Positions 2,993 through 23,427 of a stretch of DNA of 24,195 nucleotides are shown one piece after another. Both the position numbers and the translations under genes were made by a program. The stretch comes from a virus. The notes under the pieces are model-generated. The model was not told where the DNA came from. It saw only the letters and a program-made list of their open reading frames with translations, and did not search any database. The stretch covers positions 1-24,195 of the IMG/VR virus record IMGVR_UViG_3300007541_000214; one strand, given 5' to 3'. The first letter of the stretch is position 1. Every line of letters begins with the position of its first letter.

Positions 2993-4852
2993 TTAAGGAC
3001 AGCTTGTTGGTTTTTGATCTGTTGTACAAACATCTACGTAAGCTGTTAGACCATCTAAGTTAATTCCAAATCCTCCAAGATTATTTGCTATACTTGCATC
3101 TAAACCAGATGCATCTACAATGGCTGGCCATTGAGTACCTAGTCCACTTGCAGGATTTGTATAAAAAGTTGTTTCACTTCTATATTTATATAATAACTGT
3201 GAAATACCTGTTAATGCTGTTGCGCCTGTAGCAATAAAACTTGTTCCAGGATTATTATTTACTGCACCTACTAAAGTAAAGTCATCTGCTCCATCTCTAG
3301 CAATAATAGTATATAAAGCACCTGCAGTAAGACTAGTACCAGCAGCTATTATAGGTGAATCAGTTGCTGAATCAGAACCATCATAAAAAGGAGTATTTCC
3401 TCCATAGTTTACCATAAAAGATCTACTATTAAATTTAGTTGTTATATTTCTTAATGATGCATTACCAATTAAATTAGCACCTGCATCATCATAAATACTT
3501 TGTTCTAAAACAGATAATGGAGAAAACCTTAAAGTTTTATTAGCATTTATTCTTAATGTACCTGCTGCTCCACAAAGTGCTGTTCCAAATATACCTGAAC
3601 CTTGAAAGGTTTCTACTGCTAATTCTCTATTTAAATAAAATCTAGGATGTCTATAGGCACTATCTAATGGTGTAAGTGTGTCAACAACAGATGTTGGAAT
3701 AACAGGCTGTGCGCCTATTCCATCATTGTTAAAGAATAAATTACCATCTGTATCAATAAATACTCCATTAGGTCCTACATAAGGAGTAACATAATTATGA
3801 GTTCTATATGTATTAGCGTTAGCTATAGGTAATACAGCTGTGCCTGCTGTATCTCTTAATGGTATTACAGCAAGACCTCTAAAGTGAATTACATTACCAA
3901 TTCTTCGACATTGTGGTAAACCTATTGCAGCTTGATGAGCAAATCCATTTAAATCTACCCAACCTGTATCATTTATTGTAGCTTGTATAACACCACTAGT
4001 TACTGTTACATCAACTGAATTTGAAGTAGAACCTGTTACGCTAATTGCAGCTACAGCATTATATATATCACAAAGTGCCACCCATAAATTATTAATAGCA
4101 TCTGCAACAGTATCATAGTTTCCTGCAGTTACCCAATCAGGATTTGTAGAAAATGCTGTACCTGTAGTTAATTGTAAATCTGTATCTAATATACATATAG
4201 ATTGTACAGCATTACTAAGTTCTGTAGAAGTACCTGTAGTTGCTGAAAAATCACACCATATATTATTTATAAATTCTTCAAGAATAGTATTTATAAATTG
4301 TTGACCACTTAATGTACCTATTGTACAAGCTAATGTAAAGCTATCTTGTACAAAAGTTGGTGTAGGTGCGTTTTCTAAATTTTCAACCCTAATTATAAGA
4401 TCAGAAATTTGTGAACTTAAAAAACTAATTTGAGTAACTAATGAACAAACTTTATTTGCAATCATTTGAACATAGTCAACAAGTTGCATTGTAGTTTGAT
4501 TGTTCTCTACAAAACATTCAGCTACTGTAACAACACAATCAGGGCAAGTCGCATCTGTTCTTGGAACATCTGTAGTTACACCTTGATTTTCACAAATCTT
4601 ATCTATTAATAATTGTATGAGAGCCTGAAAGTCTTTTGGTCCACATGTAGTAATACCAAGACATGTAAGATCATAATTACTTACATTTGTTTGATCTAAA
4701 ATAGTACATAATTCTGTTGCAAGAGCAGCTACTACATCAGATACCGTATCTCCTTTACAGATATTAATACAAGAAATATCAGGTCCTTGCCATACCACAC
4801 AATTAGATGATATAGGAGAACACGGCTTATTATCTAAATTTAAAGGCTTCAT
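2993..4852 (-). CDS. Tail fibre / receptor-binding appendage protein, 619 aa
   Basis: The N-terminal Cys module (C11, C18, C28, C49, with CVVWQGPDISC) matches the following gene and probably docks the protein to the tail. Residues about 35-267 hold several helical segments that often end in Cys (for example ATELCTIL, LLIDKICENQ, MIANKVCSL, NNIWCDF, WVALCDIYNAV), consistent with a helical oligomeric stalk. From about 296 comes a domain starting TGWVDLNGFAHQ with QCRRIGNVIHFRG (314-326), a motif I recall from distal domains of many phage fibres. Residues about 501-552 contain a small module with YTIIARDGADDFTLVGA and ATGATAL, also seen in unrelated fibres. It probably recognises the host surface. 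No glycosidase or peptidase motif is evident. It ends in a Cys-containing tail (DVCTTDQKPTSCP). Confidence 0.8.
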   Translation of the reverse strand: MKPLNLDNKPCSPISSNCVVWQGPDISCINICKGDTVSDVVAALATELCTILDQTNVSNYDLTCLGITTCGPKDFQALIQLLIDKICENQGVTTDVPRTDATCPDCVVTVAECFVENNQTTMQLVDYVQMIANKVCSLVTQISFLSSQISDLIIRVENLENAPTPTFVQDSFTLACTIGTLSGQQFINTILEEFINNIWCDFSATTGTSTELSNAVQSICILDTDLQLTTGTAFSTNPDWVTAGNYDTVADAINNLWVALCDIYNAVAAISVTGSTSNSVDVTVTSGVIQATINDTGWVDLNGFAHQAAIGLPQCRRIGNVIHFRGLAVIPLRDTAGTAVLPIANANTYRTHNYVTPYVGPNGVFIDTDGNLFFNNDGIGAQPVIPTSVVDTLTPLDSAYRHPRFYLNRELAVETFQGSGIFGTALCGAAGTLRINANKTLRFSPLSVLEQSIYDDAGANLIGNASLRNITTKFNSRSFMVNYGGNTPFYDGSDSATDSPIIAAGTSLTAGALYTIIARDGADDFTLVGAVNNNPGTSFIATGATALTGISQLLYKYRSETTFYTNPASGLGTQWPAIVDASGLDASIANNLGGFGINLDGLTAYVDVCTTDQKPTSCP

Positions 4853-4866
4853 AATTTTCTCTATTT

Positions 4867-4875
4867 ATAATATAC
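4867..4875 (-). promoter_or_regulatory. Copy of a recurring GTATATTAT intergenic motif
   Basis: The 26-base gap ahead of the 619-residue fibre gene reads GTATATTAT on the minus strand. The same nine bases occur ahead of the genes starting at 997 and 9045. It could be a -10-like element. At this AT content chance matches are expected, and one copy also lies inside a coding region near 22151. Confidence 0.2.
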
Positions 4876-4878
4876 AAA

Positions 4879-6975
4879 TTAATTTTTACAATTGCAAGAA
4901 GATTTAGTACATGAACAGCTACAAGCAGAACATTTATAATTTGGATCTTTTAGTGCTTGTAAGTCAATTAATTCTTTTTCTATTATCCATTTCATGTCTT
5001 CATCTGGACAGCAGTTACTAATTCCGTATCTTTTCTCCAGTGCATCTTTATACATTGCTTGTGCAAACTTACATGTTATCTTATCATATTTTTCTGCAGA
5101 GCATATAGGTGTATTATATCCTGGTTTTACAGTTCTATTGTTTTTAAAAACTGGCTGTGGACATACTCCATGTTGACAATCTCCGAAGTATTCTGGATAT
5201 AAAAACTCATTAGCTGGAAGAGGTTGTTCTGTTGTTAAATCCCACTTCTTTAAACATATTTTTTCAGATGTTTCTCCTACAGCTAAAGTAAGTTGTTGTA
5301 TTTCATTATTACAATCAGTATAACTTACTGTTTGCTCAGATGATGTTATATTAGTTAGTCTAGAACATACGCAAGGTATATCTATACCACAGTCTTCACA
5401 GTTATCATATGATTCTACTAGTGTTACAACAGCAAGTTCTGTAAATACTCTAGTTTCAGATACTTCCCAACAGGTATCACAATTTTCTATTTTTATTGTT
5501 TGACCTAAATAGGTAGATAAATCAGTTGCTGTTACAATATCAGCTGCTTCACCTAAACAATCTGTTAATCTATAATATTTAGATAAACAAGCATTACAAG
5601 TCTTAAATGAATTGTCTACTGTAATTAAAGTAACTGATGGTGGTACGTAATTAATTTCTTCAACTGTCCAACAACCGCAATCATCTTCTATTACTTGTCC
5701 TACATAAGCAGAAAGGTCTTGTAAGGTATATTGTACCTCATATATTTTCTCACAGTTTTGAAGTTTGTATGCAATTGTTGGTTCACATGCTGTACATGAA
5801 TCATATTCTTGAATTATTGTAACATCTACTGCACAATCACAAGGTCCGACACATCTCTCAGTTTCTAATCCAATATATTCTACACCATCTTCTAAAACCC
5901 AACCTGTTTCTGATCCATCTGTAATTAATTCAGGACAATTTACATCAGCTTTACTTGTAGCAATAACAGGCCAAATAAATTCTCCTATACCAGGATAACC
6001 ATTTCTAGTAATTTGCCATTCTAAACCATCAAACCAAATGTAATACAAAGAGGCTCCAATTTGATAACTGTAGACATTTTTACCATTCCAAATACCTATT
6101 GAATTTGCTATATATTCTGTTGTACCTGTTTCTTCTTGTATAGTTACAGTAATACAATCACAACCTGGATTAATAGATTCTTCTACTGACCAACAGCCTG
6201 TATAACCAGCTAATGTTAATACTGAAGATGTGTTTACATATTGAGATAAACTTTGTAGAGTAGAATAAATTACTTCATCAGTATCACAGTTTGTAAGTTT
6301 ATAGCAAACTTCACCACAAGCACCATCTGAACATAAACCATTACTTGCAATTGCAAAATCTCCTGGAGTACCCGTTACAAATGGATATACTCTTGAACAA
6401 AACTTAGTTATAGTAAAATCTTTAACTATCTGATTATCGCAATCTACATATAATAAAGTTTTAACAATACCGTTTATTTCATAACATATACATGGACATG
6501 GTTCTGGGGCAATTCCTACAACAGTTATTGGACTAGCAGGATTATTACAGTTACCATCATTTTCAATAACAAACCAAGTACCAGCTTCTTCTTCTATTTC
6601 AATAAATTGACCTACATAAGCAGATAAATTTTCTAAAGTATTAAAGAAAATACCTTCACAATTTACTAATCTATAACAAGTAGGAGTACCTCCACAATCA
6701 GGACATAACTCATTTTCACAATCATTTAAAATTGCAGATACTTCTACAAACTCAGATATTGGTGGAGCAGAAGGATATGGTGGATTAAATTGTGCTCCTA
6801 CATTCTCAATTGAATAACAATTACCATTTATAAAATTTACACCTCCTATTGTAACATCTGTTCCTGTAAATGTAAATGTTCCGCTAGTACTTGCTAACGC
6901 TTCTAATATTACAAATGTACCTTCTTGTGTTGGGTCACAGCAAGATGTAATTCTAAAATATGGTGAACCGGCCAT
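4879..6975 (-). CDS. Cysteine-rich repeat virion/appendage protein, 698 aa
   Basis: I count about 53 Cys in 698 residues. Four copies of a roughly 40-residue unit (about 99-138, 224-266, 403-441, 467-507) share YxLxNC...LxxLSxYVGQxIxxxxxxCWxVEE. A second repeat type (about 162-194 and 535-574) has Cys-x-Cys, then Y-x-DC-x-N-x-I. An inserted non-repeat domain (about 285-375; VYSYQ, YYIWFDGLEW) resembles a small binding module. The C-terminal 80 residues are helical (ICSAEKYDKITCKFAQAMYKDA) and end in a dense Cys tail with CSACSCSC and CNC. I recognise the repeat from hypothetical proteins of uncultured Bacteroidota phages but know no assigned function. A disulfide-stabilised or metal-binding appendage is an inference. 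Its ATG overlaps the stop of the 47-residue gene before it (TAATG). Confidence 0.75.
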   Translation of the reverse strand: MAGSPYFRITSCCDPTQEGTFVILEALASTSGTFTFTGTDVTIGGVNFINGNCYSIENVGAQFNPPYPSAPPISEFVEVSAILNDCENELCPDCGGTPTCYRLVNCEGIFFNTLENLSAYVGQFIEIEEEAGTWFVIENDGNCNNPASPITVVGIAPEPCPCICYEINGIVKTLLYVDCDNQIVKDFTITKFCSRVYPFVTGTPGDFAIASNGLCSDGACGEVCYKLTNCDTDEVIYSTLQSLSQYVNTSSVLTLAGYTGCWSVEESINPGCDCITVTIQEETGTTEYIANSIGIWNGKNVYSYQIGASLYYIWFDGLEWQITRNGYPGIGEFIWPVIATSKADVNCPELITDGSETGWVLEDGVEYIGLETERCVGPCDCAVDVTIIQEYDSCTACEPTIAYKLQNCEKIYEVQYTLQDLSAYVGQVIEDDCGCWTVEEINYVPPSVTLITVDNSFKTCNACLSKYYRLTDCLGEAADIVTATDLSTYLGQTIKIENCDTCWEVSETRVFTELAVVTLVESYDNCEDCGIDIPCVCSRLTNITSSEQTVSYTDCNNEIQQLTLAVGETSEKICLKKWDLTTEQPLPANEFLYPEYFGDCQHGVCPQPVFKNNRTVKPGYNTPICSAEKYDKITCKFAQAMYKDALEKRYGISNCCPDEDMKWIIEKELIDLQALKDPNYKCSACSCSCTKSSCNCKN

Positions 6976-7118
6976 TATTTAATATATTTACTTAAATCTT
7001 CTTTTAATTTATTTTCATAAGAGACTTTGCATGAAGCGCAAACTGTTGTACCATTTGATGCTTTTTTTCTTTGACATCCGCATGATAATTTTTTTCCGCA
7101 ATTAGGACAAGCACTCAT
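6975..7118 (-). CDS. 47-residue zinc-ribbon-like protein
   Basis: An ATG at 7118 opens a 47-codon frame ending TAA at 6977-6975. The product begins MSACPNCGKKLSCGC and has a second pair, CASC, at residues 27-30, giving Cys at 4, 7, 13, 15, 27 and 30, as in a small zinc ribbon. The C-terminus is a charged helix (VSYENKLKEDLSKYIK). The stop overlaps the start of the 698-residue gene by one base (TAATG), the coupling seen elsewhere here, which supports it as a real gene. I recall very similar tiny CPxCGKxLSCGCQ proteins beside structural genes in other phages. The role is unknown; metal binding is inferred from the Cys pairs. Confidence 0.8.
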   Translation of the reverse strand: MSACPNCGKKLSCGCQRKKASNGTTVCASCKVSYENKLKEDLSKYIK

Positions 7119-7138
7119 AGTTGTTGGTTTTAAAGTGT

Positions 7139-7681
7139 TTAACAATTTCTACAATCTAATTTATTTAAAAGTTTTACAGCATAATTAAACAATGTCATTC
7201 CTTCTTGATTTTCATGACATGTTTCTACTTTAGCTTTAGCAGCATCTAAGTACATTTTAATTAAATGTAATTCTTTTAATTTTTCTTTTACTTTTGATGG
7301 TGGATCACAATCTGATACACTTATATCACAAAGTATTTTTTCATATGTATTAAGAGCACAAGTCATTCTTAAATGATTATACTCTACATATACTGTACAA
7401 TCTGGTGATGTAACATATTTTATTCCATATATCCCATCAGGTAGATTAACATATGATGAACCACAGTTTTCAGTTTGAATTCCTAAATCACATCCTGTTA
7501 ATGTAGGACTAGATTCTGGTACAAAAGATACTTCTGCAGCTTCTGAAAATCCTGGAACTACTATCATTAAAGTTGGATTAACTAAACCTACTAATGGAGA
7601 ATAAACACTTGTATCAAAAATCTTCATTACACATGAATTTGATACAGTTGGAATTTCTAAACTTAAAACATGATTTGCCAT
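7139..7681 (-). CDS. Conserved virion-region protein, 180 aa
   Basis: The protein has two parts. Residues 1-105 are beta-rich (ANHVLSLEIPTVSNSCVMKI, LMIVVPGFSEAAEVSF, NLPDGIYGIKYV, VYVEYNHLRMTC). Residues about 110-180 are helical and charged (KEKLKELHLIKMYLDAAKAKVETC, FNYAVKLLNKLDCRNC). There are several Cys. I recall this arrangement as a gene conserved among uncultured Bacteroidota phages directly beside the Cys-rich appendage gene, without an assigned role. Its place between an abundant-looking virion protein and the fibre block suggests a tail or appendage assembly component. It starts 10 bases after the terminator hairpin at 7691-7728, so it may depend on read-through or on a promoter overlapping the hairpin. 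Confidence 0.7.
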   Translation of the reverse strand: MANHVLSLEIPTVSNSCVMKIFDTSVYSPLVGLVNPTLMIVVPGFSEAAEVSFVPESSPTLTGCDLGIQTENCGSSYVNLPDGIYGIKYVTSPDCTVYVEYNHLRMTCALNTYEKILCDISVSDCDPPSKVKEKLKELHLIKMYLDAAKAKVETCHENQEGMTLFNYAVKLLNKLDCRNC

Positions 7682-7692
7682 AATATTATAAT

Positions 7693-7728
7693 AAAAAAGG
7701 AGAGGAGAGATAACCTCTCACTCTCCTT
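7693..7728 (-). terminator. Rho-independent terminator after the 430-aa virion gene
   Basis: AAGGAGAG (7697-7704) pairs with CTCTCCTT (7721-7728) and GAGAG (7705-7709) pairs with CTCTC (7715-7719), leaving a single bulged A and a five-base loop. The minus-strand 3' side runs into TTTTTT (complement of 7698-7693). It lies 25 bases past the stop of the 430-residue gene. Confidence 0.85.
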
Positions 7729-7752
7729 ACTATGAAAGTTAATAATAACTAA

Positions 7753-9045
7753 TTAAGCTCCTGTTGGAAGCGGAACCGATGGACTAGCACAAGCTGCACC
7801 AGATTCAGCTCCAGGATCTGTACAATCATTACCACAACCAGCAGCATAACCTTCTAGGAATGCTTTTACTGTAGCAAGATTAGCAGAACCAGCTGCAAAA
7901 ATTAGATCTACTAAGTATTGATCATTATCAAATGTACCTGTTGGATTGTTAAATCTTGGAACATTGTGTAACAAGAACAATCTGTCATAAAGTGCATTTC
8001 TATCAACCAAACCTGCACAACCTACAAGTGCATCACCTTGAGTAATCTCACGGATACGTAGATCAGTTGCAAAATGATTTTGTCTATAAGATTCTGATAA
8101 GATAAAGTCTCTTGCTACTGTTTCACCAAGACCATTTGCTTGACGACCAGCACATTCAACTACTGTACAAATACCTTCAAACTCACATGGGTTACCATTT
8201 AAGTCTGTTTCTGAAGCGTACAATCTTACAGGCTCTTTTTCATAGAAATCACTTGTTTGGAAAGTACAATCTCCAAACTTAGTATCTTCATAAGCACCAA
8301 TAAGAGTAAGACCTGCACATTCACCTTCAGTATGACCCGCAGATGTATAATTATCCCAAGTATCAGCACCTACAGGAAGACCTGTTGATCCTGGTGGGTA
8401 ATATAAATCACCATCTTCAGATGTTACAACTGGAAATACAAATGGAGAAAGAATAGGAGATTCTACAATTTGTTCTGCCCATTGAATCATCATTAATGTT
8501 GAATCTACAGCTACTGGAGCAATAGTTTCATCAGCACAACATCCACCATAAGCAGATACTGTTAAGTATGCTTGATGATTTAACAAACGTAGTGCAGGAG
8601 ATCCTTTAGCATCAATACGTAAATAATAAGTTTCTCCACACAAGAATGTTTTACAACATTCCCCTGTTGCAGGAGGATTAGCTGATGAATAAGAAGTATT
8701 ACCTACATGCAAGATGTAGTTTTGAGCAGCATTTGATAAACCTCGATATATTTTAGAAATATATTTAGGGTTTACTGCTTTAGTTTTGATAGATTCTTGG
8801 TATCCTCCGTGAAAAGGTCCAATCTTATCATTTGGATAAGGAGATCCAACTGCAAGAACAAAGTTACAGCAATCATCTGGAGTAGCATTAGTAATATCTA
8901 AAGCTTCCCAAGTTTTTGCGTTAAATGCTCCAAGTTGTCCAGGGTTAAGAGTAATGTCTACTCCTAAAACATCCCCAGCTTGACCAGCTGATGTTAGACT
9001 ACTAACAATCGCTGATTTTCTAAAAGCGTGATTAAAATAAGCCAT
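7753..9045 (-). CDS. Probable abundant virion structural protein, 430 aa
   Basis: It begins MAYFNHAFRKSAIVSSLTSA, followed by LNPGQLGAFNAKTWEALDI. It carries GPFHGGYQESIKTKAVNPKYIS (about 77-98), YYLRIDAKGSPALRLLNHQAYLT and several Cys pairs (DDCCNF, GECCKTFLC, GGCCAD), plus a Cys-rich C-terminus. I recall proteins with the same MAYFNHAF start and FHGGYQES motif in many uncultured Bacteroidota phages but cannot name a function; a tail, collar or decoration protein is possible. Signs of high expression are the dedicated terminator, an isolated 64-base AT-rich upstream gap, and more C-ending codons than TerL (5 of the first 9 Asn codons are AAC). It is not the MCP, which is clear elsewhere. Confidence 0.75.
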   Translation of the reverse strand: MAYFNHAFRKSAIVSSLTSAGQAGDVLGVDITLNPGQLGAFNAKTWEALDITNATPDDCCNFVLAVGSPYPNDKIGPFHGGYQESIKTKAVNPKYISKIYRGLSNAAQNYILHVGNTSYSSANPPATGECCKTFLCGETYYLRIDAKGSPALRLLNHQAYLTVSAYGGCCADETIAPVAVDSTLMMIQWAEQIVESPILSPFVFPVVTSEDGDLYYPPGSTGLPVGADTWDNYTSAGHTEGECAGLTLIGAYEDTKFGDCTFQTSDFYEKEPVRLYASETDLNGNPCEFEGICTVVECAGRQANGLGETVARDFILSESYRQNHFATDLRIREITQGDALVGCAGLVDRNALYDRLFLLHNVPRFNNPTGTFDNDQYLVDLIFAAGSANLATVKAFLEGYAAGCGNDCTDPGAESGAACASPSVPLPTGA

Positions 9046-9109: not shown

Positions 9110-9619
9110 TTATTTCAAGAAAAGTAATTTATACTTTGCTGAGTTAATTGAGTCTTTAACTAGATCTAAATTATTTACTATCTCAGAGTAAGGTAACATA
9201 CCCTGTAATTTATTTATCATTCCGTACATATCTCTTAAATATGATATGCCGTCAGCCACGGTATCCAATGATCTAGGAGATACTTCTTTATATGATAAAA
9301 TCTTTTCTGCTACACCTTGATATCCTTCTATTAATGTATCGGCATGTTCAGGCATTGCATCATATAGTTCATTTAAAGCTTTATGTGCTGCATATGATCC
9401 AACACCTTGTACTTTTAAATGTAGTTTATGAAAACTAGTTGCAGCATTCATAAGTTCAGTTGCACATGAACTTACCATATTATCTAATGAACTACCGCCT
9501 ACACCTGTATCTTTTACAGGTTCTGCTTTTATTTCATTAGTTTCCATCATTGGTGTCTGAGGTCTACTAATTTTTTTAGCAGGCTCAGTTCTTTTTAACA
9601 TTCTTGATGTAGTTTCCAT
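9110..9619 (-). CDS. Dps/ferritin-like protein in the virion operon, 169 aa
   Basis: After a flexible, charged N-terminus (about 1-45) comes a helical bundle. The segment LHLKVQGVGSYAAHKALNEL with EHADTLIEGYQG resembles the Dps ferroxidase region. H67, H79, N83, D94 and E98 have the same spacing (12, 4, 11, 4) as H51, H63, D67, D78 and E82 of E. coli Dps, with Asn (followed by Glu84) where Dps has Asp67. I recall small Dps-like phage families of unknown function (possibly Pfam DUF5856). Two more helices follow (about 103-168), so the chain is about the size of Dps. It sits between a connector-type gene and a virion gene, two bases after the former. It may be packaged or may protect DNA or bind iron; none of that is shown. 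The fold call is fairly firm, the activity is not. Confidence 0.7.
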   Translation of the reverse strand: METTSRMLKRTEPAKKISRPQTPMMETNEIKAEPVKDTGVGGSSLDNMVSSCATELMNAATSFHKLHLKVQGVGSYAAHKALNELYDAMPEHADTLIEGYQGVAEKILSYKEVSPRSLDTVADGISYLRDMYGMINKLQGMLPYSEIVNNLDLVKDSINSAKYKLLFLK

Positions 9620-10320: not shown

Positions 10321-10491
10321 CTATTTCTTTTTACGGTTTTTAGCAATTTTTTTAAAAGTCTTAGCAAGTGCTTTAGCTTTACCTGTGCAACCTGGTTTAG
10401 TTATAGGAGTGCATTTACCAGCAGTACCACGTCTTTTTATAGATGCGGTAGCTTTCTGTATCCACTTCTTATCTTTCTTTTTAGTTGCCAT
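10321..10491 (-). CDS. 56-residue Lys-rich protein of the small basic cluster
   Basis: An ATG at 10491 overlaps the preceding stop as TAATG and opens a 56-codon frame ending TAG at 10323-10321. The product starts MATKKKDKKWIQKATASIK and contains KRRGTAGKCTPITKPGCTG, then a basic helix ending KNRKKK. I recall the WIQKA...KRRGTxGKCTPITKPGCTG pattern as a recurring tiny protein in aquatic phages and some large DNA viruses, function unknown. The high Lys content and the two Cys suggest nucleic-acid binding, perhaps with metal or disulfide, but that is inference. The one-base overlap and matching codon style support it as real. Confidence 0.8.
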   Translation of the reverse strand: MATKKKDKKWIQKATASIKRRGTAGKCTPITKPGCTGKAKALAKTFKKIAKNRKKK

Positions 10492-10934
10492 TATTTTTTT
10501 CTTTTATTTCTTTTAGCCGCAGTAATAATATCACCTCTAGTAATTTTATTAGGATCTCCATACATAGCTGCTAATTCTCCACCTTTTTTAAGGGATCTTC
10601 CTTGAATAGTTCTTGGATTGTTAGAATACTTAGGCATTGATCCACCACATTTAGCACAGGCTATTCCACCTTTTTTCATACTTGGTCTTAGCCCTTGTTC
10701 TATTTCTTTATTATATTGTTTTCTGGCACTTCCTCTAGATTTACCAGTTTCATCCATAATTTCATTAATAGCTTTTCTTTTTTTTAAACCTTTAGCAATA
10801 GCTTGACCTGCCATACCTGCAAGACCTGCTCCAAAAGCACCAATAGTACCTTTAGGTATAGTTTTTAAAACTGAACCTCCAGGTTGATATTTCATCATTT
10901 TAATATCTCTTTTTGTTTTAATTCTTCTTTCCAT
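10491..10934 (-). CDS. Basic protein with glycine-rich hydrophobic segment, 147 aa
   Basis: The N-terminus is strongly basic (MERRIKTKRDIKMMKYQPGG). A Gly/Ala-rich hydrophobic stretch follows at about 29-49 (GTIGAFGAGLAGMAGQAIAKG) and could insert in membranes. Then come basic helices (KKRKAINEIMDETGKSRG), a Cys pair (CAKC, about 93-96), and a C-terminal KKGGELAAMYGDPNKITRGD followed by AAKRNKRKK. The C-terminal pattern (LKKGG...YNKITRxDIxTAAxxNKxKK) is one I recall at the ends of small phage virion-region proteins. It could be co-ejected DNA-binding or membrane-active material; this is inference. It overlaps the next gene by one base and starts 17 bases after the previous stop. Confidence 0.7.
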   Translation of the reverse strand: MERRIKTKRDIKMMKYQPGGSVLKTIPKGTIGAFGAGLAGMAGQAIAKGLKKRKAINEIMDETGKSRGSARKQYNKEIEQGLRPSMKKGGIACAKCGGSMPKYSNNPRTIQGRSLKKGGELAAMYGDPNKITRGDIITAAKRNKRKK

Positions 10935-10950
10935 GATATATATAATTATG

Positions 10951-11238
10951 TTAACAATTCCATTTACGTAAAGACTTGTTAATCCTAGAGTTAGGATCCT
11001 TAGCAGTCTTTGAACTTGTTAGTTTTTTCTTCATACCTTTCATTCTAGCACAAAAAGATTTTCTTCTTTTAGCATCTTTACTGTCAGGATCAAGTTGTGA
11101 TGGTTTTTTAGTAACAGCAGTCTTTAGTTTACTTCCTGGATTAGCTTTTCTATAAGAAGCAACACCTTTCTTGTTAAGTCCTCCTGATTTAGACTTACCT
11201 TCTTTTCTTTGCCAAGCAGGAGTTTTTTTAGTTGCCAT
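10951..11238 (-). CDS. Small basic phage protein (DUF6321-like), 95 aa
   Basis: It begins MATKKTPAWQRKEGKSKSGG and continues GLNKKGVASYRKANPGSKLKT. The second half has KDAKRRKSFCARMKGMKK and ends SRINKSLRKWNC. The pattern PAWQRKEGK...GGLNxKGxxSYR...RRxSFxARMxGM...SLRxW matches, from memory, a small protein family of phages and marine viruses with no known role (Pfam DUF6321 is my recollection; the call needs a profile search). It is almost entirely basic and polar and probably binds DNA or the negatively charged virion interior, by inference. It begins two bases after the previous stop, in the middle of the basic-gene cluster. Confidence 0.7.
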   Translation of the reverse strand: MATKKTPAWQRKEGKSKSGGLNKKGVASYRKANPGSKLKTAVTKKPSQLDPDSKDAKRRKSFCARMKGMKKKLTSSKTAKDPNSRINKSLRKWNC

Positions 11239-11240
11239 GA

Positions 11241-11495
11241 TTACATCTTTTTACCTGAAGCTATATCATTAAATTCTTTAGCTTTTGCTGCAGCCATTTT
11301 TTTAATATCATTCATTAAGCTCTTATTCTTTTGAATATCAGCAGCTCTTTGTAATGTATTCATAGCAGATTCAACTTCCCATTTTTTCATATCTGCTTTA
11401 CTTCCGCCTAAAATAGAAATACCAACTGAAGAAGATTTCTTAGCTGGTGCTTTTCTAGTTGTTGTCTTTCTAGTTGTTGTTTTTCTAATTGCCAT
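11241..11495 (-). CDS. Small protein with histone-tail-like N-terminus, 84 aa
   Basis: Residues 1-22 (MAIRKTTTRKTTTRKAPAKK and onward) are a Thr/Arg/Lys repeat reminiscent of histone or H1-like tails. Residues about 35-84 form an amphipathic helical part (ADMKKWEVESAMNTLQRAAD, KNKSLMNDIKKMAAAKAKEF). The tail encodes a short repeat (RKTTT twice). Its ATG overlaps the previous stop (TAATG). It matches no family I can name. A DNA-condensing or packaged protein is a reasonable guess from composition, as is an unstructured scaffold helper. Confidence 0.7.
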   Translation of the reverse strand: MAIRKTTTRKTTTRKAPAKKSSSVGISILGGSKADMKKWEVESAMNTLQRAADIQKNKSLMNDIKKMAAAKAKEFNDIASGKKM

Positions 11496-11749
11496 TACTT
11501 TCTTTTTTTAATTGAACTTGTTCTTCTACCCATACCTACTTGTTTCTTTTCTCTAACAGCAGCAGCCTTTTGAGATTTAGATAAAGACCCCCATGTTCTA
11601 GGGGTCTTTTCTGAAACCTTTTTAGTTGGTCTACACTTTTTAGTTTTCTTATTTTCATCAGAACCGCAAGGATTACCTTTTTCATCCTTCCATTTTTCTT
11701 TAAACCACCTTTTAAGTGCAAGACCTTTTGCTGTTTTTCTAACCGCCAT
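11495..11749 (-). CDS. Small basic protein with RWFKEKW motif, 84 aa
   Basis: I chose the ATG at 11749, whose A overlaps the previous stop (TGATG); a GTG one codon upstream is less likely. The product begins MAVRKTAKGLALKRWFKEKW and continues KDEKGNPCGSDENKKTKKCRP and KTPRTWGSLSKSQKAAAVREKKQ. The order RWFKEKW-x-D/E...PCG...KCxPxKxVSxKTPxTWG...KxAxVRxKK is one I recall from small proteins in phages and giant viruses (possibly Pfam DUF5872). No function is known to me. The two Cys at about 29 and 39 may pair or bind metal. The gene contains a strong hairpin (11583-11609). Confidence 0.75.
   Translation of the reverse strand: MAVRKTAKGLALKRWFKEKWKDEKGNPCGSDENKKTKKCRPTKKVSEKTPRTWGSLSKSQKAAAVREKKQVGMGRRTSSIKKRK
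11583..11609 (-). other. Terminator-like hairpin inside a small basic gene
   Basis: AAAGACCCC (11583-11591) and GGGGTCTTT (11601-11609) are a perfect nine-base inverted repeat with a nine-base loop. On the minus strand it is followed by ATCTAAAT rather than a long T run. It covers the codons for KTPRTWGSL in the 84-residue protein. It may be an attenuator, an RNA processing signal, or an effect of coding constraint. Confidence 0.5.
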
Positions 11750-11940
11750 CACCCAATTTTTCCTTTACGTTTTCTACATTTTGCAATGTATCCACTAGCA
11801 TAAGCTGAAGGAAAAACTGCATATTTAGCTTTAGCCTTATGATAACAAGCATCTTTTTTACTACCACCCGTTTTCATTCTTTCTAGATTAGCCTCTCTAA
11901 AGAACTTTAAAACTTTTGTAGGATTTGTAGTATTAGGCAT
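11749..11940 (-). CDS. Small basic protein with PSAYASG motif, 63 aa
   Basis: The 63-residue protein carries GGSKKDACYHKAKAKYAVFP and PSAYASGYIAKCRKRKG. The KKDACYxKxKxKYxVxPSAYASGxxxKCRK signature is one I recall in small proteins across many aquatic phages and some giant viruses, usually without function. The two Cys (about 32 and 55) flank the motif and may coordinate metal or form a disulfide. It starts 6 bases after the previous stop and overlaps the next gene as TGATG. The role is unknown; its composition suggests nucleic-acid binding. Confidence 0.75.
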   Translation of the reverse strand: MPNTTNPTKVLKFFREANLERMKTGGSKKDACYHKAKAKYAVFPSAYASGYIAKCRKRKGKIG

Positions 11941-11946
11941 AACTTA

Positions 11947-12303
11947 TTATTTTCTAATTGCTCCACCTTTTTTCTTAATCTGTCTTGAAGATTTCATTTC
12001 TTTACTAGAAACGCTACCTGTTTTTTTAAAGTCTTTTTTACCTTTTCTAGTAAATGGAATGTATACACCTTTATCATCTGAAGGATTTGCTCCCATAATA
12101 CGATCTATAATTCCTTTACCTTTTCCTGCTTTTCTTTCAGCTGCTTTTTCACTAATATCTTTTCCTCTTACACGTCCTCCCATTTGTGCTTTTGGAAGAG
12201 CTGTTTTAGGTGCTTTAGAAATTCCACCCACTTTACCTTTAGAGCTTTTACTAGCAGAGGTAAGTTTTTTAGACTTGGTCTTTGTTACATTTGAAGTTTT
12301 CAT
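11947..12303 (-). CDS. Lys/Ser-rich basic protein, 118 aa
   Basis: The first gene of the basic cluster. The N-terminal 35 residues are a Lys/Ser/Thr tail (MKTSNVTKTKSKKLTSASKS), followed by KAQMGGRVRGKDISEKAAER, a short less basic part (IIDRIMGANPSDDKGVYIPF), and a basic C-terminus (SRQIKKKGGAIRK). It is probably largely disordered. No family is recognised. It begins 11 bases downstream of the 339-residue gene and the rest of the cluster follows without a gap over 17 bases, so all are likely one transcript. Function unknown; possibly packaged with DNA. Confidence 0.65.
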   Translation of the reverse strand: MKTSNVTKTKSKKLTSASKSSKGKVGGISKAPKTALPKAQMGGRVRGKDISEKAAERKAGKGKGIIDRIMGANPSDDKGVYIPFTRKGKKDFKKTGSVSSKEMKSSRQIKKKGGAIRK

Positions 12304-13409: not shown

Positions 13410-15032
13410 TTAGAAAGAGCCACCAGTAATTGGGTTTCTCATAACAATTTTCAACACTTTAGTTGGGTCTTTAACCCAAATAGCTGGCATTGTTTGAGAC
13501 ATCATTACACGGTAACCATTGAATTGTCCAGAAGACTGGAATCCTTGGCTACGACCCATGTAGTCCATAGTACCATTTTGATACCACCACTTCAATTGAT
13601 TATCCCAAGATAATTTCAACAAGAAAATGTTGTCATTAGTATTATCTGTGATATCAAAGATAATGAATGAGTATGAGCTTAATGGGAAACCATCAATGAT
13701 TGGGTTCTCAATGTCATTTGTATGAACATTGTCAAATGCTGGGTTAATTACAAACTTAACATTTGCCAAGAATGGAATTACATATGAAGTATAAGCAAAT
13801 CCAAAGTTCAAGTCCATTCCTTTACCAGTAATTGCACCGATGTCAGCAGCTTGAATAGTAAGACCTGATGCAAGAGCTTCTCTCTTGATAGCCTCATTTA
13901 CCATTCTCATACCACCCATACCAGTTTGAACTACTAGAGATCTTTTTGGATCTGGACCATCAAACTCAACTTTTCCATTAAAGAAATTATAAATCTCTGA
14001 ACGGAACAACTCAAGGCTGAAGTTATTTTTGTTGTATACTCTTTTGAAAGAGTTATCCAACTGCTTCCAAAGACCTACAGAAAGTCTCATATCATCTGGA
14101 CCATCTTGCTTAATACGTCCACCGTGTCCCCACATTAAGTAAGACTCAATGTCATTAGCAATTTTAGTCAAGTGAGCAGCTTCCATAGTAGTCAAGAATG
14201 TTCTTGATAAATCACCGTTATCAAACGCTTTCTTAACTTTATCTTTACCCATAACTTTTACCATATCTTCTAAAGATGTGATAGATGGATCAGAATTCAT
14301 GTTTCTGTCATGTGTTCTCCAGATCTCAGTTACAGGAACTGTACCATCTGCATTCATACCACCTTTAATCATCAAGTCTGCGCGAGATGAAATAGAGTAA
14401 TGAACGTGAGCTTCAGCACCACCTACAAAGTTGTAGAATTCACGGAATCCAGCTGTAGTAGTGATATCAGAGAATCTTTCACCATACTCACCACGAGCAG
14501 AACCTTTTCTAAAGAATTTAGTTCCATTTGCTAAATAAGCATTATCAAGAAACCTTAGATTATCATTATTTACAAGAGCAACAGTATAGATGAATCCGTC
14601 TCCTACAGGAAGAATATCTTCATCTGTTACATATAATTCAGCTCCGTTATACTTGTCATAAGTGATGATATCACCGTGACCAAATTCACGTTTGCTAATT
14701 TTAATGCGGAAAGTAGTACCTTCTACACCTTTGTGTTCATTGTTTGGTTCAATGTCCTCAATGATATAAGGTAAATCCTGAGAAACAGGAGTTTGCCACT
14801 TATATTCACCTCTATGGTTATCAACCATAATTACATTTTTACCACCAAAGCTAGACATTTGGTAAAGAGGCATTTCTACCTTCTGAGCCATAGCCCAAAG
14901 GTCCACTGGACCTAAATCCATTGGTTCTGCATCCTTCAACATGTTAACCAAGTGGTAAGAGTCTACGTGTGAGCTTGCGTTATACGCTGTATCCCGTAGA
15001 AAGATACCATTGTTTAAAACTGGAGTTGCCAT
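13410..15032 (-). CDS. Major capsid protein, HK97-type expected, 540 aa
   Basis: Position after portal and scaffold-like genes, a size of 540 residues and crAss-like motifs support this call. Motifs seen include ILPVGDGFIYTV, REFYNFVGGAEAHVHYS (about 196-212), TTMEAAHLTKIANDIESYLM, GHGGRIK (about 302-308), SEIYNFFNGK, and a C-terminal region with DYMGRSQGFQSSGQFNGYRV ending in NPITGGSF. It would form the icosahedral shell. Asn codons include more AAC than TerL (6 of the first 11 against 1 of 8), and Arg codons include CGC and CGT, as in a highly expressed gene. It starts 28 bases after the scaffold-like gene, with the A-rich leader TAAAAACAAATATAAAATG. A strong terminator follows. Name based on recalled family resemblance plus synteny. 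Confidence 0.88.
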   Translation of the reverse strand: MATPVLNNGIFLRDTAYNASSHVDSYHLVNMLKDAEPMDLGPVDLWAMAQKVEMPLYQMSSFGGKNVIMVDNHRGEYKWQTPVSQDLPYIIEDIEPNNEHKGVEGTTFRIKISKREFGHGDIITYDKYNGAELYVTDEDILPVGDGFIYTVALVNNDNLRFLDNAYLANGTKFFRKGSARGEYGERFSDITTTAGFREFYNFVGGAEAHVHYSISSRADLMIKGGMNADGTVPVTEIWRTHDRNMNSDPSITSLEDMVKVMGKDKVKKAFDNGDLSRTFLTTMEAAHLTKIANDIESYLMWGHGGRIKQDGPDDMRLSVGLWKQLDNSFKRVYNKNNFSLELFRSEIYNFFNGKVEFDGPDPKRSLVVQTGMGGMRMVNEAIKREALASGLTIQAADIGAITGKGMDLNFGFAYTSYVIPFLANVKFVINPAFDNVHTNDIENPIIDGFPLSSYSFIIFDITDNTNDNIFLLKLSWDNQLKWWYQNGTMDYMGRSQGFQSSGQFNGYRVMMSQTMPAIWVKDPTKVLKIVMRNPITGGSF

Positions 15033-16431: not shown

Positions 16432-19194
16432 CTATTTTTTCTTTTTCTCATTATCTTTATTTCCTGACTTAAAGTCATATTTATTTTTATTTTCTCTAGC
16501 TATTTGTAATTGTTTGTCAGCTATATCTTTTTTAGCTTGTAGTTTTTCTTGTTCAAGATCCATCTTTTGATTATGCTTTAGCATATCATTATTTTGTTTT
16601 GATCTTTGTAATTCAGTTTGCTGTTGATATTGTTCTGTTTTTCTAATATCTTCCATAGCATCTCTATAATCAGACATTTGATTTTGATTAAGATCTACCA
16701 TAGAACCATAACCAGCGGCTCTAATTTCTGCAACTAAGATATCTCTTTGTCTATCTTTTTCTTTTTCAGCAGCTTGAGCATCAAGTTTCATTTTCTCTAT
16801 TTCTTGTTGTTGTTGCAATTGTTCTTGCTGCATTTGCTGTTGTTGTTGCATTTCTTGCTCTTTCATCTTAGCATTTTTCTCTTCAGATGATTTAAGCGCA
16901 GTATTCAACTCAGCTATTGAATCTGACTGAACAACTTTACCAAGATCATAAATACTAGCACCTGTAGTATTATTCTGCATAGCCATTTGCTTTAACTGTT
17001 CAAGAACAGCTCTATGATTTGCAGTTGTAGTACAGAATATATTTAAGTCTCTTAATAAAAGATCTGTTCCGTTTATTTCAAAGTTTACTTTTTCATCAGC
17101 AGAAGTTATATATGTAAGTCTTGCGGATGGTTTATTAGAATGATAGTACTGAGCTAGATCAGTTCTCATTTGATGTACTCTAGGCATTAAATAATCTGAA
17201 TGCTGCATAAAGTAAGTTTCTGTTTGAGCATAAGATGCATTTACAGCTTGCTCTACTCCAGTAGCAGTTGTTTGTGATAACTGCTGCCCCATTCTTTGTG
17301 GATTAACACCAATTACTTCATATGCCTGTTGTTTAAAGTAATTAGCTAACTGTATCCTAGACATTAGTCTATTAGTTTGATCTAGATCTAATTTTTGGAA
17401 ATGCTGAAAGTTTAATGCGTTTTCTGTATTTGTAATAGATGTATCTAGAGGTAGCATTTGGAAATTCTTCATTGCTACATATGCTTTAGCTAAATTACCT
17501 TTACCCCAATCTTCTCCTAACGAATGTCTAGGTAAAGTATTTTGATCAAGCATGATTATAGTACCTAGTTCATCTACTAGTATATCAGCTATTTGGTTAT
17601 TTACAATATTGTACCCTATCTGGTATGGTTTCATTAAATCTATTAATGCAGTTGATTTTGTATTTCTATCTGAAAATACTGCACCTTCAACTGGTAACTT
17701 ACAACCATATAAAGTATTATCACCTTTAAATTGAAATTTAAGCGGTCCAATATGATTTTTATCTACACCTATATAAATAGGAGAAAACCCACCAGGATTA
17801 TTCATACCCCAAAAAGATGGAATATTTGGTCCAATCTTTACACCACCCCATACTTCATTAATCCAAATCCAGTCTATATGTTCACCAAATATAATATTGT
17901 CTTTAGTTTTATTTTTAAATAACCGGGTATCATAAATTGCCTTATCTGTTATTTTATAAGATTCTGTAACTATTTCGTTGGTAACTTCTCCTTGCTCAGA
18001 TACTTTAGTAAGATGACCTATTCTTCTTTGAGATTTCCAATAACCTGTAGTAACTCTTAATAAATATGCTGTACCTTGATCAAAGTAATCTTCACCTTCA
18101 GAAAGTATTTGATTAATGATATCACCACCATCCATAACAGATCCTGACATAGCAGTTGTGTATTGCCTATAAGCTAGTGATGGCATTTGTGTATTCCACT
18201 CATGAGATTTAGTACCATCATAGTATGATCCATCATTTTGATAACCTCCAATAATATAACCAGCTGATCTAATAGGGTATACAGCTTCTAATGCTTCTAA
18301 TTGCTCTTCTGTCATTAGATAACCATATTTATCTATTACATCAGAAGGTGTCATCATATCTGTTTTACCTACCCAGTTACACTGAGAAATATATCTAGCA
18401 TCTGGAGACTTATGATAGAATGTAAGAACAGGATTCCAAAGTTCTACTTCATAATCATCTTCCATCATCCTCATATGCCAGAATTCTCTATCTGTAATAA
18501 GCATATCACGGAAGGCTCTTTCTTCAAGCTCTTCCATACGGAACCTTTCTGTATCAATTTTATGCTGATGAGTAGCCCATTGCTCAATCATAGATCTATA
18601 ACTCTTTTTAAAGAATTGTTCTATTTCAGGAAGGCTTTTTAAATTTTCTGGAGCTAATTGTTGTTGAGCTTCTTCAGATTCTGGATCTAAACCTTGCTCA
18701 AGCATAGCAGCCATTATTTTAGTATTAGCTTCTGCAAGTAAAGTTTCCTCTACCATAACTCTTTTTTCTTCCATCATCTCATTATATGAGAAGTCATCAA
18801 CTGCTCTATAATTTAATTTAGTAGAACGTTTAGCAAATTCAGCAACTAATACATTAATTACATTTGGAATAATTGGATAAAATTTTAATTCAAGAGCTGA
18901 AGCATCTTCTTTAGTTAAGAGTTCAATAACATCTCTATATTCATTATCCTCTTCAATTATATAATCTGATTTATCTATAATACCTTTAGCAAGCTTGTAG
19001 TTCTTCATTAACCTACGAGCATTTCTACGGATTTGTTTAAGACCATTCCATTCTAGCCAATCAAGATTCCAAGCTGCCCACTCATCATCTTTTTTACTCT
19101 TAGGTAGAAATTGTAAAGGTTGAGTAATACTACCTAATCTATTTTGTTCTACTTTGGCCCCTTTTTTTAATTGTAATGCGTTATATACTTGCAT
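16432..19194 (-). CDS. Portal protein with long Gln-rich C-terminal tail, 920 aa
   Basis: A 920-residue protein between TerL and the scaffold-like gene. The N-terminal 120 residues are helical with WNLDWLEWNGLKQIRRNARR. A clip/stem-like region contains SAGYIIGGYQNDGSYYDGTK and DHLD-free helical stretches. The centre has EVWGGVKIGPNIPSFWGM and GPLKFQFKGDNTLYGCKLPV (about 450-510), then YQIGYNIVNNQIADILVDEL and a helical core with VNPQRMGQQLSQTTATGVEQ (about 635-655). From about 770 on it is a charged coiled coil with Gln tracts (MQQQQQMQQEQLQQQQEIEK) ending in a Lys run. The size and motifs match, from memory, crAss-like portals. It would form the dodecameric ring through which DNA enters. The tail may be the portal barrel extending into the head, by analogy with P22. 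Confidence 0.87.
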   Translation of the reverse strand: MQVYNALQLKKGAKVEQNRLGSITQPLQFLPKSKKDDEWAAWNLDWLEWNGLKQIRRNARRLMKNYKLAKGIIDKSDYIIEEDNEYRDVIELLTKEDASALELKFYPIIPNVINVLVAEFAKRSTKLNYRAVDDFSYNEMMEEKRVMVEETLLAEANTKIMAAMLEQGLDPESEEAQQQLAPENLKSLPEIEQFFKKSYRSMIEQWATHQHKIDTERFRMEELEERAFRDMLITDREFWHMRMMEDDYEVELWNPVLTFYHKSPDARYISQCNWVGKTDMMTPSDVIDKYGYLMTEEQLEALEAVYPIRSAGYIIGGYQNDGSYYDGTKSHEWNTQMPSLAYRQYTTAMSGSVMDGGDIINQILSEGEDYFDQGTAYLLRVTTGYWKSQRRIGHLTKVSEQGEVTNEIVTESYKITDKAIYDTRLFKNKTKDNIIFGEHIDWIWINEVWGGVKIGPNIPSFWGMNNPGGFSPIYIGVDKNHIGPLKFQFKGDNTLYGCKLPVEGAVFSDRNTKSTALIDLMKPYQIGYNIVNNQIADILVDELGTIIMLDQNTLPRHSLGEDWGKGNLAKAYVAMKNFQMLPLDTSITNTENALNFQHFQKLDLDQTNRLMSRIQLANYFKQQAYEVIGVNPQRMGQQLSQTTATGVEQAVNASYAQTETYFMQHSDYLMPRVHQMRTDLAQYYHSNKPSARLTYITSADEKVNFEINGTDLLLRDLNIFCTTTANHRAVLEQLKQMAMQNNTTGASIYDLGKVVQSDSIAELNTALKSSEEKNAKMKEQEMQQQQQMQQEQLQQQQEIEKMKLDAQAAEKEKDRQRDILVAEIRAAGYGSMVDLNQNQMSDYRDAMEDIRKTEQYQQQTELQRSKQNNDMLKHNQKMDLEQEKLQAKKDIADKQLQIARENKNKYDFKSGNKDNEKKKK
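16804..16860 (-). repeat. CAA/CAG-type repeat encoding Gln tracts in the portal tail
   Basis: Low-complexity TTG-type triplets on the plus strand encode runs of Gln (about residues 778-797). Such tracts vary easily in length by slippage. Confidence 0.6.
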
Positions 19195-19200
19195 ACTAAA

Positions 19201-21408
19201 TTATTTAATGTTCTTAAAAGGTGATTTTTTAAAAACTTTACCGTTAGCTAATCTTCCATTTCCACCAATATGACGGAATGGGCTGTTATTTAATTTAAAC
19301 AAATTTTTTGAATTTTGCAACTTTTTTGCTGCATCATCTCTTTCAATTCTTTTATTATATCCTCTATTTGAGGATTGTATTCTCATAAATGCAACCAGTG
19401 CTGCAAATGATACAAGTCTATCCACGTTAACTCCATCAGCATATTCTCTCATTTCTTTGATCAACATTGGATCTGGAATTCTTTCAATTCCATAATGTGT
19501 TTTAACAATTGTACCATCAGGTTTTGTTTGTTGGTCTATTTCTTCTTTAGTATACTCTATAGCATAACTAAGAAGATGAGCTTTAAATAATGTTCCAGTA
19601 TTTCTCCAACCATATTCCTGGTATACATTTGAGTTAGCACCTAAATCTTTAAGAAATAATACTTGACTTTTTGGAACTAGATACTTTTGCTTTCTTCTTG
19701 ATATCATATACTGAATAAAAAGAGAAATGTTATTTTCAATAAGAGTCCAAGCATTATACCATTCAATTATAAGCTCTAGCATCTGATGTGTTTTATTTAT
19801 ATCATCATATCTTCCACACCAGGTAGCTACAATTTTATCTCTTTCAATATATGATTCTGTTTCTTCTCCAGTCATTTTAGTTACTTCTACCGGAGCCTTC
19901 ATTACATATATAGAACATAAAGATTCAGATGTTGTAGTCTTACCTTCTGATACGGGGTCAATAGAAGCATAATATGTTCCAAATTCTAAACCTTTTACAG
20001 GTCTTTCCCAAACTACTAGACATCCTGTTTTATCTTCTGTTTTTTTATTTACTGGAAATTCTTTTATTGGTTGTTTATTGCTTTTTTTAACAGTAGGTTT
20101 TCCATCTTCATCAGTCATTATATCTAAATACTCATAAGGATATTCTTTATCTTCTATTCTTCTTTCTTGTGCTGACAATAAATGTGTTGGAAAAACTGAT
20201 ACTGATCTATGATCAAAAGCTTCTTTAATATTTCTTGGATGCTGAGATATCCTTAGCTGGTAGTCTTCTGGTGCTAATTCTTCTTTCCATTTTTTAAACT
20301 GATCATCTAAAGCTTGTAATGCATCTTCTACAAGTGAATTACCATGATTATCAATGTGTGGTGGCATAGACCACTGTTCTGGAATAAAAAGACCTGACTC
20401 ACCTGTAGTACCTTTATCATCTATTAAATCTGTATCTACACTATATATATCTTTAGCTCCAGGAAACATTATCATTTCTTTTAAAGGCATACACTGTGAT
20501 AAATCACCCACAGATCCTGCTGCAATAAACATCCCTGTAGTAGTAAGTCCTGATCTCATTGCAGGTCTCATATACTCATATGTCTTATCCATTTTAGGTG
20601 CAATTCCAGCCTCTTCATGAAAGAAGTATTTTACTGGACCACCAACACCATTTGTTGGATCTTTCTCAAATGACATAGCTTGTATAGTACCTTTAAGACC
20701 TACTTCAGTTTTACGGTCTCCTTTTCTTACTTCAATCTTTTGCTGCCACATCATTACCTTACTTGGATTCATTGGTCTATACCAAGCAGTATGCTCATTT
20801 AAGAATGCTGCATATTCATCTAAAAATTTCCAAGATCCTTTTTCATTAATGTAATCTTTGAGACTAGCTCCTATTTTTAAAGTAACTCCTGGCTCAAACC
20901 ATAATTGATTTATAAGTTTAGCCATATGATAATATGAGGATGCTATCTGACGTTTCTTTAGTATAGCAACATGTTTGTAATTTAGTTCTGCTAGTAGCTC
21001 GTATAATGCCATATGATACTGAGCATCTCTAATATCTGCAAAACCAAACTTTTGTATTTCTTTGTTAAAGATTGGTAAGAAATTTAACCACATATAGTAT
21101 TCTCTTGCAAGAAACCATATATTTTTTCCATCTTTAATTATTACACCTTTTTTGCATTTTTGTTTTTGATCATCCCAATAACTTACAAAGTCTTTTGATC
21201 TGAAAGGAGCTGTACAATATACTCCATCTTTATTAAACGTTGTTGACTCTGTAACAAATAGTTTACTGCTAAGTTCATTGAATTTGTACTCTCCTGGTTT
21301 TTTAAAAAGTTCTTTGATAAAGTCTGCGAAGTCTTGTCTGGATTCAAAACTTGTGGTTGTCCATTTTTCTTTTTCATAAGTTGGTATGTCTTGATAAATT
21401 TCACTCAT
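19201..21408 (-). CDS. terL: Terminase large subunit (TerL), 735 aa
   Basis: The packaging motor and nuclease. ATPase part: an atypical Walker A, KKRQIASS (151-158); a Walker B-like KYFFHEEAG (260-268), with His where Asp is usual and Glu265/266 as catalytic candidates; and a coupling motif MFIAAGSVGD (293-302). The nuclease part has YYASIDPVSEGK (Asp484), LIENNISLF (Glu558) and EYADGVNVDRLVSFAALVAF (Asp663), matching the three-acid RNase-H-like site of TerL nucleases. The C-terminal 50 residues are a basic, disordered-looking tail (NSPFRHIGGNGRLANGK). It overlaps the previous gene by one base (TAATG) and is followed six bases later by the portal, the standard packaging order. Motif placement is by eye. 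Confidence 0.92.
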   Translation of the reverse strand: MSEIYQDIPTYEKEKWTTTSFESRQDFADFIKELFKKPGEYKFNELSSKLFVTESTTFNKDGVYCTAPFRSKDFVSYWDDQKQKCKKGVIIKDGKNIWFLAREYYMWLNFLPIFNKEIQKFGFADIRDAQYHMALYELLAELNYKHVAILKKRQIASSYYHMAKLINQLWFEPGVTLKIGASLKDYINEKGSWKFLDEYAAFLNEHTAWYRPMNPSKVMMWQQKIEVRKGDRKTEVGLKGTIQAMSFEKDPTNGVGGPVKYFFHEEAGIAPKMDKTYEYMRPAMRSGLTTTGMFIAAGSVGDLSQCMPLKEMIMFPGAKDIYSVDTDLIDDKGTTGESGLFIPEQWSMPPHIDNHGNSLVEDALQALDDQFKKWKEELAPEDYQLRISQHPRNIKEAFDHRSVSVFPTHLLSAQERRIEDKEYPYEYLDIMTDEDGKPTVKKSNKQPIKEFPVNKKTEDKTGCLVVWERPVKGLEFGTYYASIDPVSEGKTTTSESLCSIYVMKAPVEVTKMTGEETESYIERDKIVATWCGRYDDINKTHQMLELIIEWYNAWTLIENNISLFIQYMISRRKQKYLVPKSQVLFLKDLGANSNVYQEYGWRNTGTLFKAHLLSYAIEYTKEEIDQQTKPDGTIVKTHYGIERIPDPMLIKEMREYADGVNVDRLVSFAALVAFMRIQSSNRGYNKRIERDDAAKKLQNSKNLFKLNNSPFRHIGGNGRLANGKVFKKSPFKNIK

Positions 21409-22772: not shown

Positions 22773-23072
22773 TCAATTTTTAAGGTTATCTAATTTTTCT
22801 TCTTCTTCTTCAGTAGCAATAGCATCCCACTTACCAAGTGGACAATCTGAAGATAAAGATCTTGTTTTAAAATTTAAAGAACATCCGCATTCATTGCAAC
22901 ATGGAGCAGTACCTTTTACAGCACACTTCTTTCCTTTATGTTCACATTCATCACAAATAGAATATCTAAGTCTAGCAATTTCTTCAACAGTTTCATCTCT
23001 AAGAACTGAGTTAGTAATTCCTTCAAGTATCTCTTTTCTATTTTTCCAAATAAGTTTAAGGGTGTTTTTCAT
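22773..23072 (-). CDS. Zinc-ribbon-type conserved phage protein, 99 aa
   Basis: A short helical N-terminus (MKNTLKLIWKNRKEILEGIT) is followed by a Cys-rich core: CDEC (40-43), Cys50, CCNECGC (58-64) and a final CPLGKW (from Cys77). The C-terminus is acidic. Eight Cys and one His suggest one or two bound zinc ions. I recall similar proteins, with the ending CPLGKW, encoded near packaging genes in many phages of Bacteroidota. The function is unknown; it may assist packaging or the neighbouring nuclease. The start overlaps the preceding HU-like gene by 17 bases, and the stop is 15 bases before the nuclease ATG. Confidence 0.8.
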   Translation of the reverse strand: MKNTLKLIWKNRKEILEGITNSVLRDETVEEIARLRYSICDECEHKGKKCAVKGTAPCCNECGCSLNFKTRSLSSDCPLGKWDAIATEEEEEKLDNLKN

Positions 23073-23427
23073 TTCTTTTAATTTTAATTTCTTCTTTTCT
23101 TTTAATTTCTTCTGAAATCTTTACGTTAAGTTTCTTAAGTTTTTCTAATCTTTCTTCAAGCATCTTTTTGTTATAATATGCAGAGTATGTTGAAGTTTCA
23201 TGATTCTCTAACATTTTTTCAATCTTTGGTATTGAAGTTTTTATAAAGCCTGGTTTTGTAACAAATTGACCTAAACCTTCAATATTTAATCTAGGATATT
23301 TTAATTCACCCATTTGTTTTCTGACTGTAGAATAATAATACTCAATTAAATCTTCTATGTAATTTTTTGAAATATTATTTTCTTCTGAAAATTCTTTATA
23401 TAAGTCTTTAATTTTTTTTGGAGTCAT
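23056..23427 (-). CDS. HU/IHF-like DNA-binding protein, 123 aa
   Basis: Residues about 1-45 form two helices (KIKDLYKEFSEENNISKNYI, EDLIEYYYSTVRKQMGELKY). They are followed by a beta motif PRLNIEGLGQFVTKPGFI (about 43-60) that resembles the HU segment with GFG-x-F. The C-terminal half is a basic helix (KKMLEERLEKLKKLNVKISE, then KRKEEIKIKRNEK) rather than the long HU arm. IHF-like genes are known in crAss-like phages. It would bend or bind DNA, perhaps in packaging. It overlaps the preceding gene by four bases (ATGA) and the next by 17. The HU fold is likely but needs a profile or structure match. Confidence 0.7.
   Translation of the reverse strand: MTPKKIKDLYKEFSEENNISKNYIEDLIEYYYSTVRKQMGELKYPRLNIEGLGQFVTKPGFIKTSIPKIEKMLENHETSTYSAYYNKKMLEERLEKLKKLNVKISEEIKRKEEIKIKRNEKHP

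Follow-up and report, generated by a model that had tools for sequence, protein, structure and literature searches.

A Dps/ferritin-fold protein of the DUF5856/PHROG_858 family is encoded at the same place in the capsid operon throughout a large environmental clade of crass-like phages, and the alignments indicate that one Asp ligand of the Dps metal site has been lost across the clade. This unvarying placement and the apparent clade-wide loss of the Asp are what is new here; phage Dps-like proteins as such (PMC8008677), their presence in particles and the Ferrojan Horse reading of them have already been published for relatives. The protein was found in a viral DNA stretch of 24,195 nucleotides (the window), which its major capsid protein, portal and terminase large subunit genes identify as part of a crass-like phage (Table 1). 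We see about an even chance that this capsid-operon protein serves as a minor metal-binding cargo of the virion that limits iron damage to DNA.

Table 1 Features of the window discussed in the text (positions count from its first nucleotide)
Feature	Position	Strand	Basis
Dps/ferritin-fold protein, DUF5856/PHROG_858, 169 aa	9110..9619	-	PF19174 and PHROG_858 profiles, AF2 fold, Foldseek
N-terminal tail, residues 1-43, Pro-rich, basic, net charge +2	9491..9619	-	pLDDT, charge count, length variation in relatives
H67 codon, equivalent of the Dps site-A His	9419..9421	-	unvarying in 106 crass-like and 11 distant homologs
H79 codon, equivalent of the Dps site-B His	9383..9385	-	unvarying in crass-like and distant homologs
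N83 codon, place of the Dps Asp ligand	9371..9373	-	Asn/Gly in the crass-like clade; D, E, N or G in distant phages
D94 codon, equivalent of the Dps Asp ligand from the partner subunit	9338..9340	-	unvarying in crass-like and distant homologs
E98 codon, equivalent of the Dps bridging Glu ligand	9326..9328	-	unvarying in crass-like and distant homologs
Capsid auxiliary protein, crAss001 gp36 fold, 430 aa	7753..9045	-	AF2 model compared with the PDB
Tail ring/connector protein, crAss001 gp34 (R4/R5) type, 232 aa	9622..10320	-	profile matches; PHROG_29507 2.4e-14
Crass-like major capsid protein	13410..15032	-	PF23898 3e-29
Portal protein	16432..19194	-	PHROG_6547 5.4e-100
Terminase large subunit	19201..21408	-	PHROG_6681 4.7e-55

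The + strand of the 9110-9619 interval is riddled with stop codons, and the translation of 169 aa is read from the - strand. Membership in DUF5856, for which a profile search had been suggested in the original prediction, was confirmed above the curated cut-off: PF19174 matched residues 75-165 at 9.7e-14 (52.6 bits against 34.6). PHROG_858 matched the protein at 3.5e-20, and the general ferritin profile PF00210 remained sub-threshold (14.5 bits, cut-off 24.5), which sets the protein apart from Dps proper. When a family profile built from 39 homologs was compared with the PDB, mostly Dps-family chains were retrieved, all of the best ones included, with the ligand helices aligned, although the best E-value was only 0.0065; the few non-Dps matches lay near E = 1 and were unrelated.

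The AlphaFold2 model, a single-chain prediction based on 39 related sequences, contains four confident helices (residues 44-69, 75-104, 121-141 and 145-166) arranged as a four-helix bundle. Its best PDB matches in Foldseek were MrgA and other Dps proteins (e.g., 2chp and 1n1q) with a probability of 1.00 and TM values of ~0.56-0.68, at modest E-values of about 0.004-0.02 (best 0.004), and many phage Dps-like proteins were present among the viral matches. The predicted structure thus agrees with the proposed likeness to Dps, and the label "ferritin-like" is well supported. In Dps, the BC helix is located at the dimer two-fold, and the ferroxidase site is common to two subunits; in the prediction, the stretch from residue 104 to residue 121 contains no such helix, a further departure from Dps proper. 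In BFVD, the model is also matched by several proteins of uncultured phages (333-763 aa) that are labelled "prohead protease", which suggests that other phages may have Dps domains joined to proteins of capsid assembly.

The residues H67, H79, N83, D94 and E98 are spaced 12/4/11/4, exactly as the ligands of Dps, and both the numbering and the spacing given in the original prediction proved to be correct; likewise, HMMER aligned this stretch with the part of helices A and B that carries the ligands in MrgA and B. brevis Dps. The pattern H-x11-H-x3-[DEN]-x10-D-x3-E appeared in ~5 of 100,000 shuffles of the protein, but the invariance of the ligands among homologous sequences is stronger evidence than this statistic.

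These data raise a further question: is the Asn at position 83 private to this protein, or is it a property of its relatives? In total, 58 distinct near homologs from 80 viral contigs were compared, and 48 more divergent ones were added, giving 106 distinct crass-like sequences. Both sets were free of variation at H64, H67, H79, D94 and E98, while position 83 was occupied only by Asn or Gly (N30/G29 in the near set and N42/G6 in the divergent set), never by Asp or Glu. Thus, the Asp-to-Asn exchange noted originally is real but is not private; the substitution is clade-wide. Among 11 distant phage proteins (~30% identity or less), H67, H79, D94 and E98 were also unvarying, and position 83 was E, D, N or G. 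Glu84, to which attention had been drawn as a neighbor of N83, was considered as a substitute ligand and rejected, since close relatives do not conserve this position (D25/E19/K5 and others).

The core of the protein is under purifying selection (pN/pS 0.23). Four of the five members of the H, H, D, D, E ligand set are kept, one fewer than in Dps proper. We take H67, D94 and E98 to represent the tight site A of Dps, and H79 together with position 83 to represent the weaker site B. Because site A is complete and site B has lost its Asp, the protein is expected to bind metal, but its ferroxidase activity would be weak or altered and would fall short of the full mineralisation seen in Dps. The missing ligand and the absence of a BC helix from the model make full oxidation of iron doubtful.

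Another important question is whether the location of the gene is meaningful. It had been described as lying between a connector-type gene and a virion gene, and the identification of both neighbors bears this out. In the window, the ring gene is located upstream, with two bases separating its stop codon from the ATG of the Dps-like gene. The best profile match of the ring protein was phi4:1 gp062 (2.4e-20), a structural protein confirmed by mass spectrometry (MS), followed by JY46 (3.8e-15), phi14:2 gp100 (2.1e-5) and crAss001 gp34 (0.0013), the last of which has been named as rings R4/R5 (PMC10172136). For the 430 aa protein on the other side, the AF2 model had a single significant match in the PDB, at E 1.2e-10 and a probability of 1.00: chain a of 7qof, the phicrAss001 capsid. 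The length of this chain (333 aa) and the entry in which it occurs identify it as the capsid auxiliary protein gp36. The ring gene was found directly upstream of the Dps-like gene in all 143 loci with a visible neighbor (80/80 of the first loci and 63/63 of the wider set), and the capsid auxiliary gene was found downstream in all 130 loci with both flanks (72/72 and 58/58).

Other parts of this region deserve mention. Six tandem genes for small, very basic proteins (10491-12303, - strand; pI 10.2-10.9, 24-34% Lys+Arg) stand between the gp33-type gene and the ring gene and include DUF6321 (10951-11238, 1.3e-20) and DUF5872 (11495-11752, 8e-14); they are possibly DNA-packing or cargo proteins. 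Two of the proteins (10951-11238 and 11749-11940, - strand) match internal or terminal stretches of the much larger families phrog_727 and phrog_3477, as if the domains of one multidomain protein were encoded by separate genes here. Downstream (2993-9045, - strand), the proteins are acidic and Cys-rich, with 53 Cys in the 698 aa protein, 20 in the 619 aa protein, 16 in the capsid auxiliary protein and 10 in the 180 aa protein, which suggests disulfide-rich or metal-binding surface parts. A weak HU/IHF-like match (PF00216, 5.5e-4, just under the cut-off) was observed at 23056-23427 (- strand).

Crass-like phages are known from Bacteroidota, and the closest cultured relative by major capsid protein is the cyanobacterial Leptolyngbya phage Lbo-JY46 (27% over 99%). 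The search for a host returned a single genome match, a 7.9 kb contig in a Sphingomonadaceae MAG with the same gene order, which is probably a misbinned phage. The set of basic proteins differs among relatives, and none is listed at that place in this contig.

One additional line of evidence concerns the particles of other phages. LIMEstone1 ORF78 (13.15 kDa) was identified in particles from 3 unique peptides, at a coverage of 28.21%, and was reported as a "confirmed structural protein" (PMC3296691); its record and sequence show a 117 aa homolog of the window protein. Sajous1 gp217 was detected in particles with 10 spectra and a Phyre2 match to "ferritin", although its authors warned that low spectral counts may represent debris (PMC10892097). 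The paper places it beside a "tail completion" gene, and we considered whether a different gene was meant, but the record shows a 117 aa DUF5856 homolog. phiR1-37 g280 is annotated in its record as "phage structural protein"; for this gene (6001-6438), the family match continues in the upstream direction beyond the annotated start, across one TAA, and the start may deserve a check. Detection of the relatives in the particles of other phages is at a low level. By analogy with them, virion association of the window protein is probable; it probably rides in the virus particle as a metal-binding passenger and is not a wholly new invention, because relatives have already been found in such particles. 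A literature search for DUF5856 by name returned no paper; reports on Yersinia phage YerA41 and Vibrio phage pir03 mention host Dps and ribonucleotide reductase rather than this family.

The N-terminus was originally described as a disordered tail with a possible targeting or DNA-binding function. The disorder is supported by the AF2 model, in which residues 1-41 have pLDDT values below 50, but the targeting role is not: tail lengths in the wider set of relatives span 10 to 47 residues, and the tail changes faster than the core (pN/pS 0.49 vs. 0.23). A conserved targeting domain was therefore rejected, and these features indicate a flexible tail.

On the basis of the homology, predicted fold, ligand conservation and operon position established above, the following course of events can be suggested. 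The Dps-like protein would be produced late, together with the tail ring and capsid auxiliary proteins, and would travel inside the particle as a minor cargo protein. Its chains would self-associate across a Dps-like two-fold, with H67/H79 of one chain and D94/E98 of the partner holding a metal ion, most likely Fe2+ and possibly Zn2+ or Mn2+. The basic tail could touch DNA, and iron-driven damage to packaged or freshly injected DNA would thereby be limited. A stronger version, namely, that the environmental crass-like clade builds a Dps-type metal binder into every particle as an obligate part, with a site re-tuned from Asp to Asn/Gly so that it binds iron without mineralising it and shields the packaged DNA, is put forward only tentatively and is on the unlikely side of possible.

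Could the protein instead act inside the cell? It might be a late intracellular Dps-like protein that shields the pools of phage DNA, or the host, against iron or peroxide stress late in infection and uses the virion operon only for the timing and amount of its expression. Gut-phage Dps genes have been read in this way in print (PMC8008677), and the same family occurs outside the virion genes in crAss001 and T4-like phages; however, all 130 loci with both flanks lock the gene between the ring and capsid auxiliary genes, and three relatives have been detected by MS or annotated in particles. We regard this explanation as rather unlikely, if still to be taken seriously. The same fixed position, together with the loss of the Asp throughout the clade, would suit a metal-stabilised structural piece (an adaptor, plug or assembly factor) at the interface of the tail ring and the capsid auxiliary protein, in which the ligands serve folding or dimerisation only, without iron chemistry. 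Nevertheless, the ligands are also kept in phages that lack such an operon context, and phi4:1, phi14:2, Lbo-JY46 and crAss001 build their ring and capsid without such a gene at that place, which makes this possibility improbable.

Finally, iron on the protein could be presented to a siderophore receptor and aid entry, the Ferrojan Horse role raised in the original prediction. This role has already been proposed for Sajous1 gp217, a family member found in particles, but in the one host examined, Salmonella, strains deficient in TonB or FeoB were infected by Vi01-like phages to about the same extent as the wild type (PMC10892097), and instead of tail fibers, the neighboring genes identified in the window encode a tail barrel ring and a capsid auxiliary protein. 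The idea is weakened accordingly, and we consider it highly improbable for the window protein. The virion cargo reading, which we prefer, has a broader meaning: iron in phage particles has so far been proposed without a clear carrier protein, and the DUF5856 ferritin-fold family, with its conserved predicted metal site, relatives in particles and capsid-operon lock, offers a specific candidate for this role. The carrier idea can be tested directly, as laboratory E. coli phages such as RB49 encode homologs.

The family as a whole has no general link to virion genes, because the crAss001 copy lies among tRNAs and the copies in RB49, CC31 and PS2 adjoin rI. No Dps-like gene was found between the ring and capsid auxiliary genes of crAss001, phi14:2, phi4:1 or Lbo-JY46, and a PHROG_858 search elsewhere in the latter three gave no match; phi4:1 gp060 was rejected as a candidate, as its profile match was weak (E 0.076) and the ligand motif was absent on reading. 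The profile from our homolog alignment detected nothing in crAss001, but PHROG_858 found gp7 there, so this negative result is a matter of sensitivity. A scattered accessory gene can turn into a fixed part of a virion module, as the present clade shows.

The window protein has the fold and the helix A/B ligand spacing in common with bacterial Dps and MrgA (2chp, 1n1q), which differ in having the Asp ligand and the BC helix, whereas the window protein has Asn or Gly in its clade, a model without that helix and a score below the PF00210 cut-off. EncFtn is a ferritin-family cargo inside the HK97-fold encapsulin shell, and it can be compared with the window protein by analogy only. In RB49 rI.-1, LIMEstone1 ORF78, Sajous1 gp217, CBA120 orf108 and phiR1-37 g280, the helical core is alike by alignment and the equivalents of H67, H79, D94 and E98 are unvarying; these proteins are shorter (117-132 aa), some of them keep Asp or Glu at position 83, and their genes are located among early/middle or scattered structural genes, whereas the window protein has a longer basic tail and its gene is locked in the capsid operon. 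The "putative DpsA protein" gp7 of crAss001, also a crass-like phage, matches PHROG_858 at 4e-7 and possesses the H, H, D and E ligands plus an Asp at position 83, but its gene is located in a tRNA cluster far from the structural block, whereas the gene described here lies inside the virion operon.
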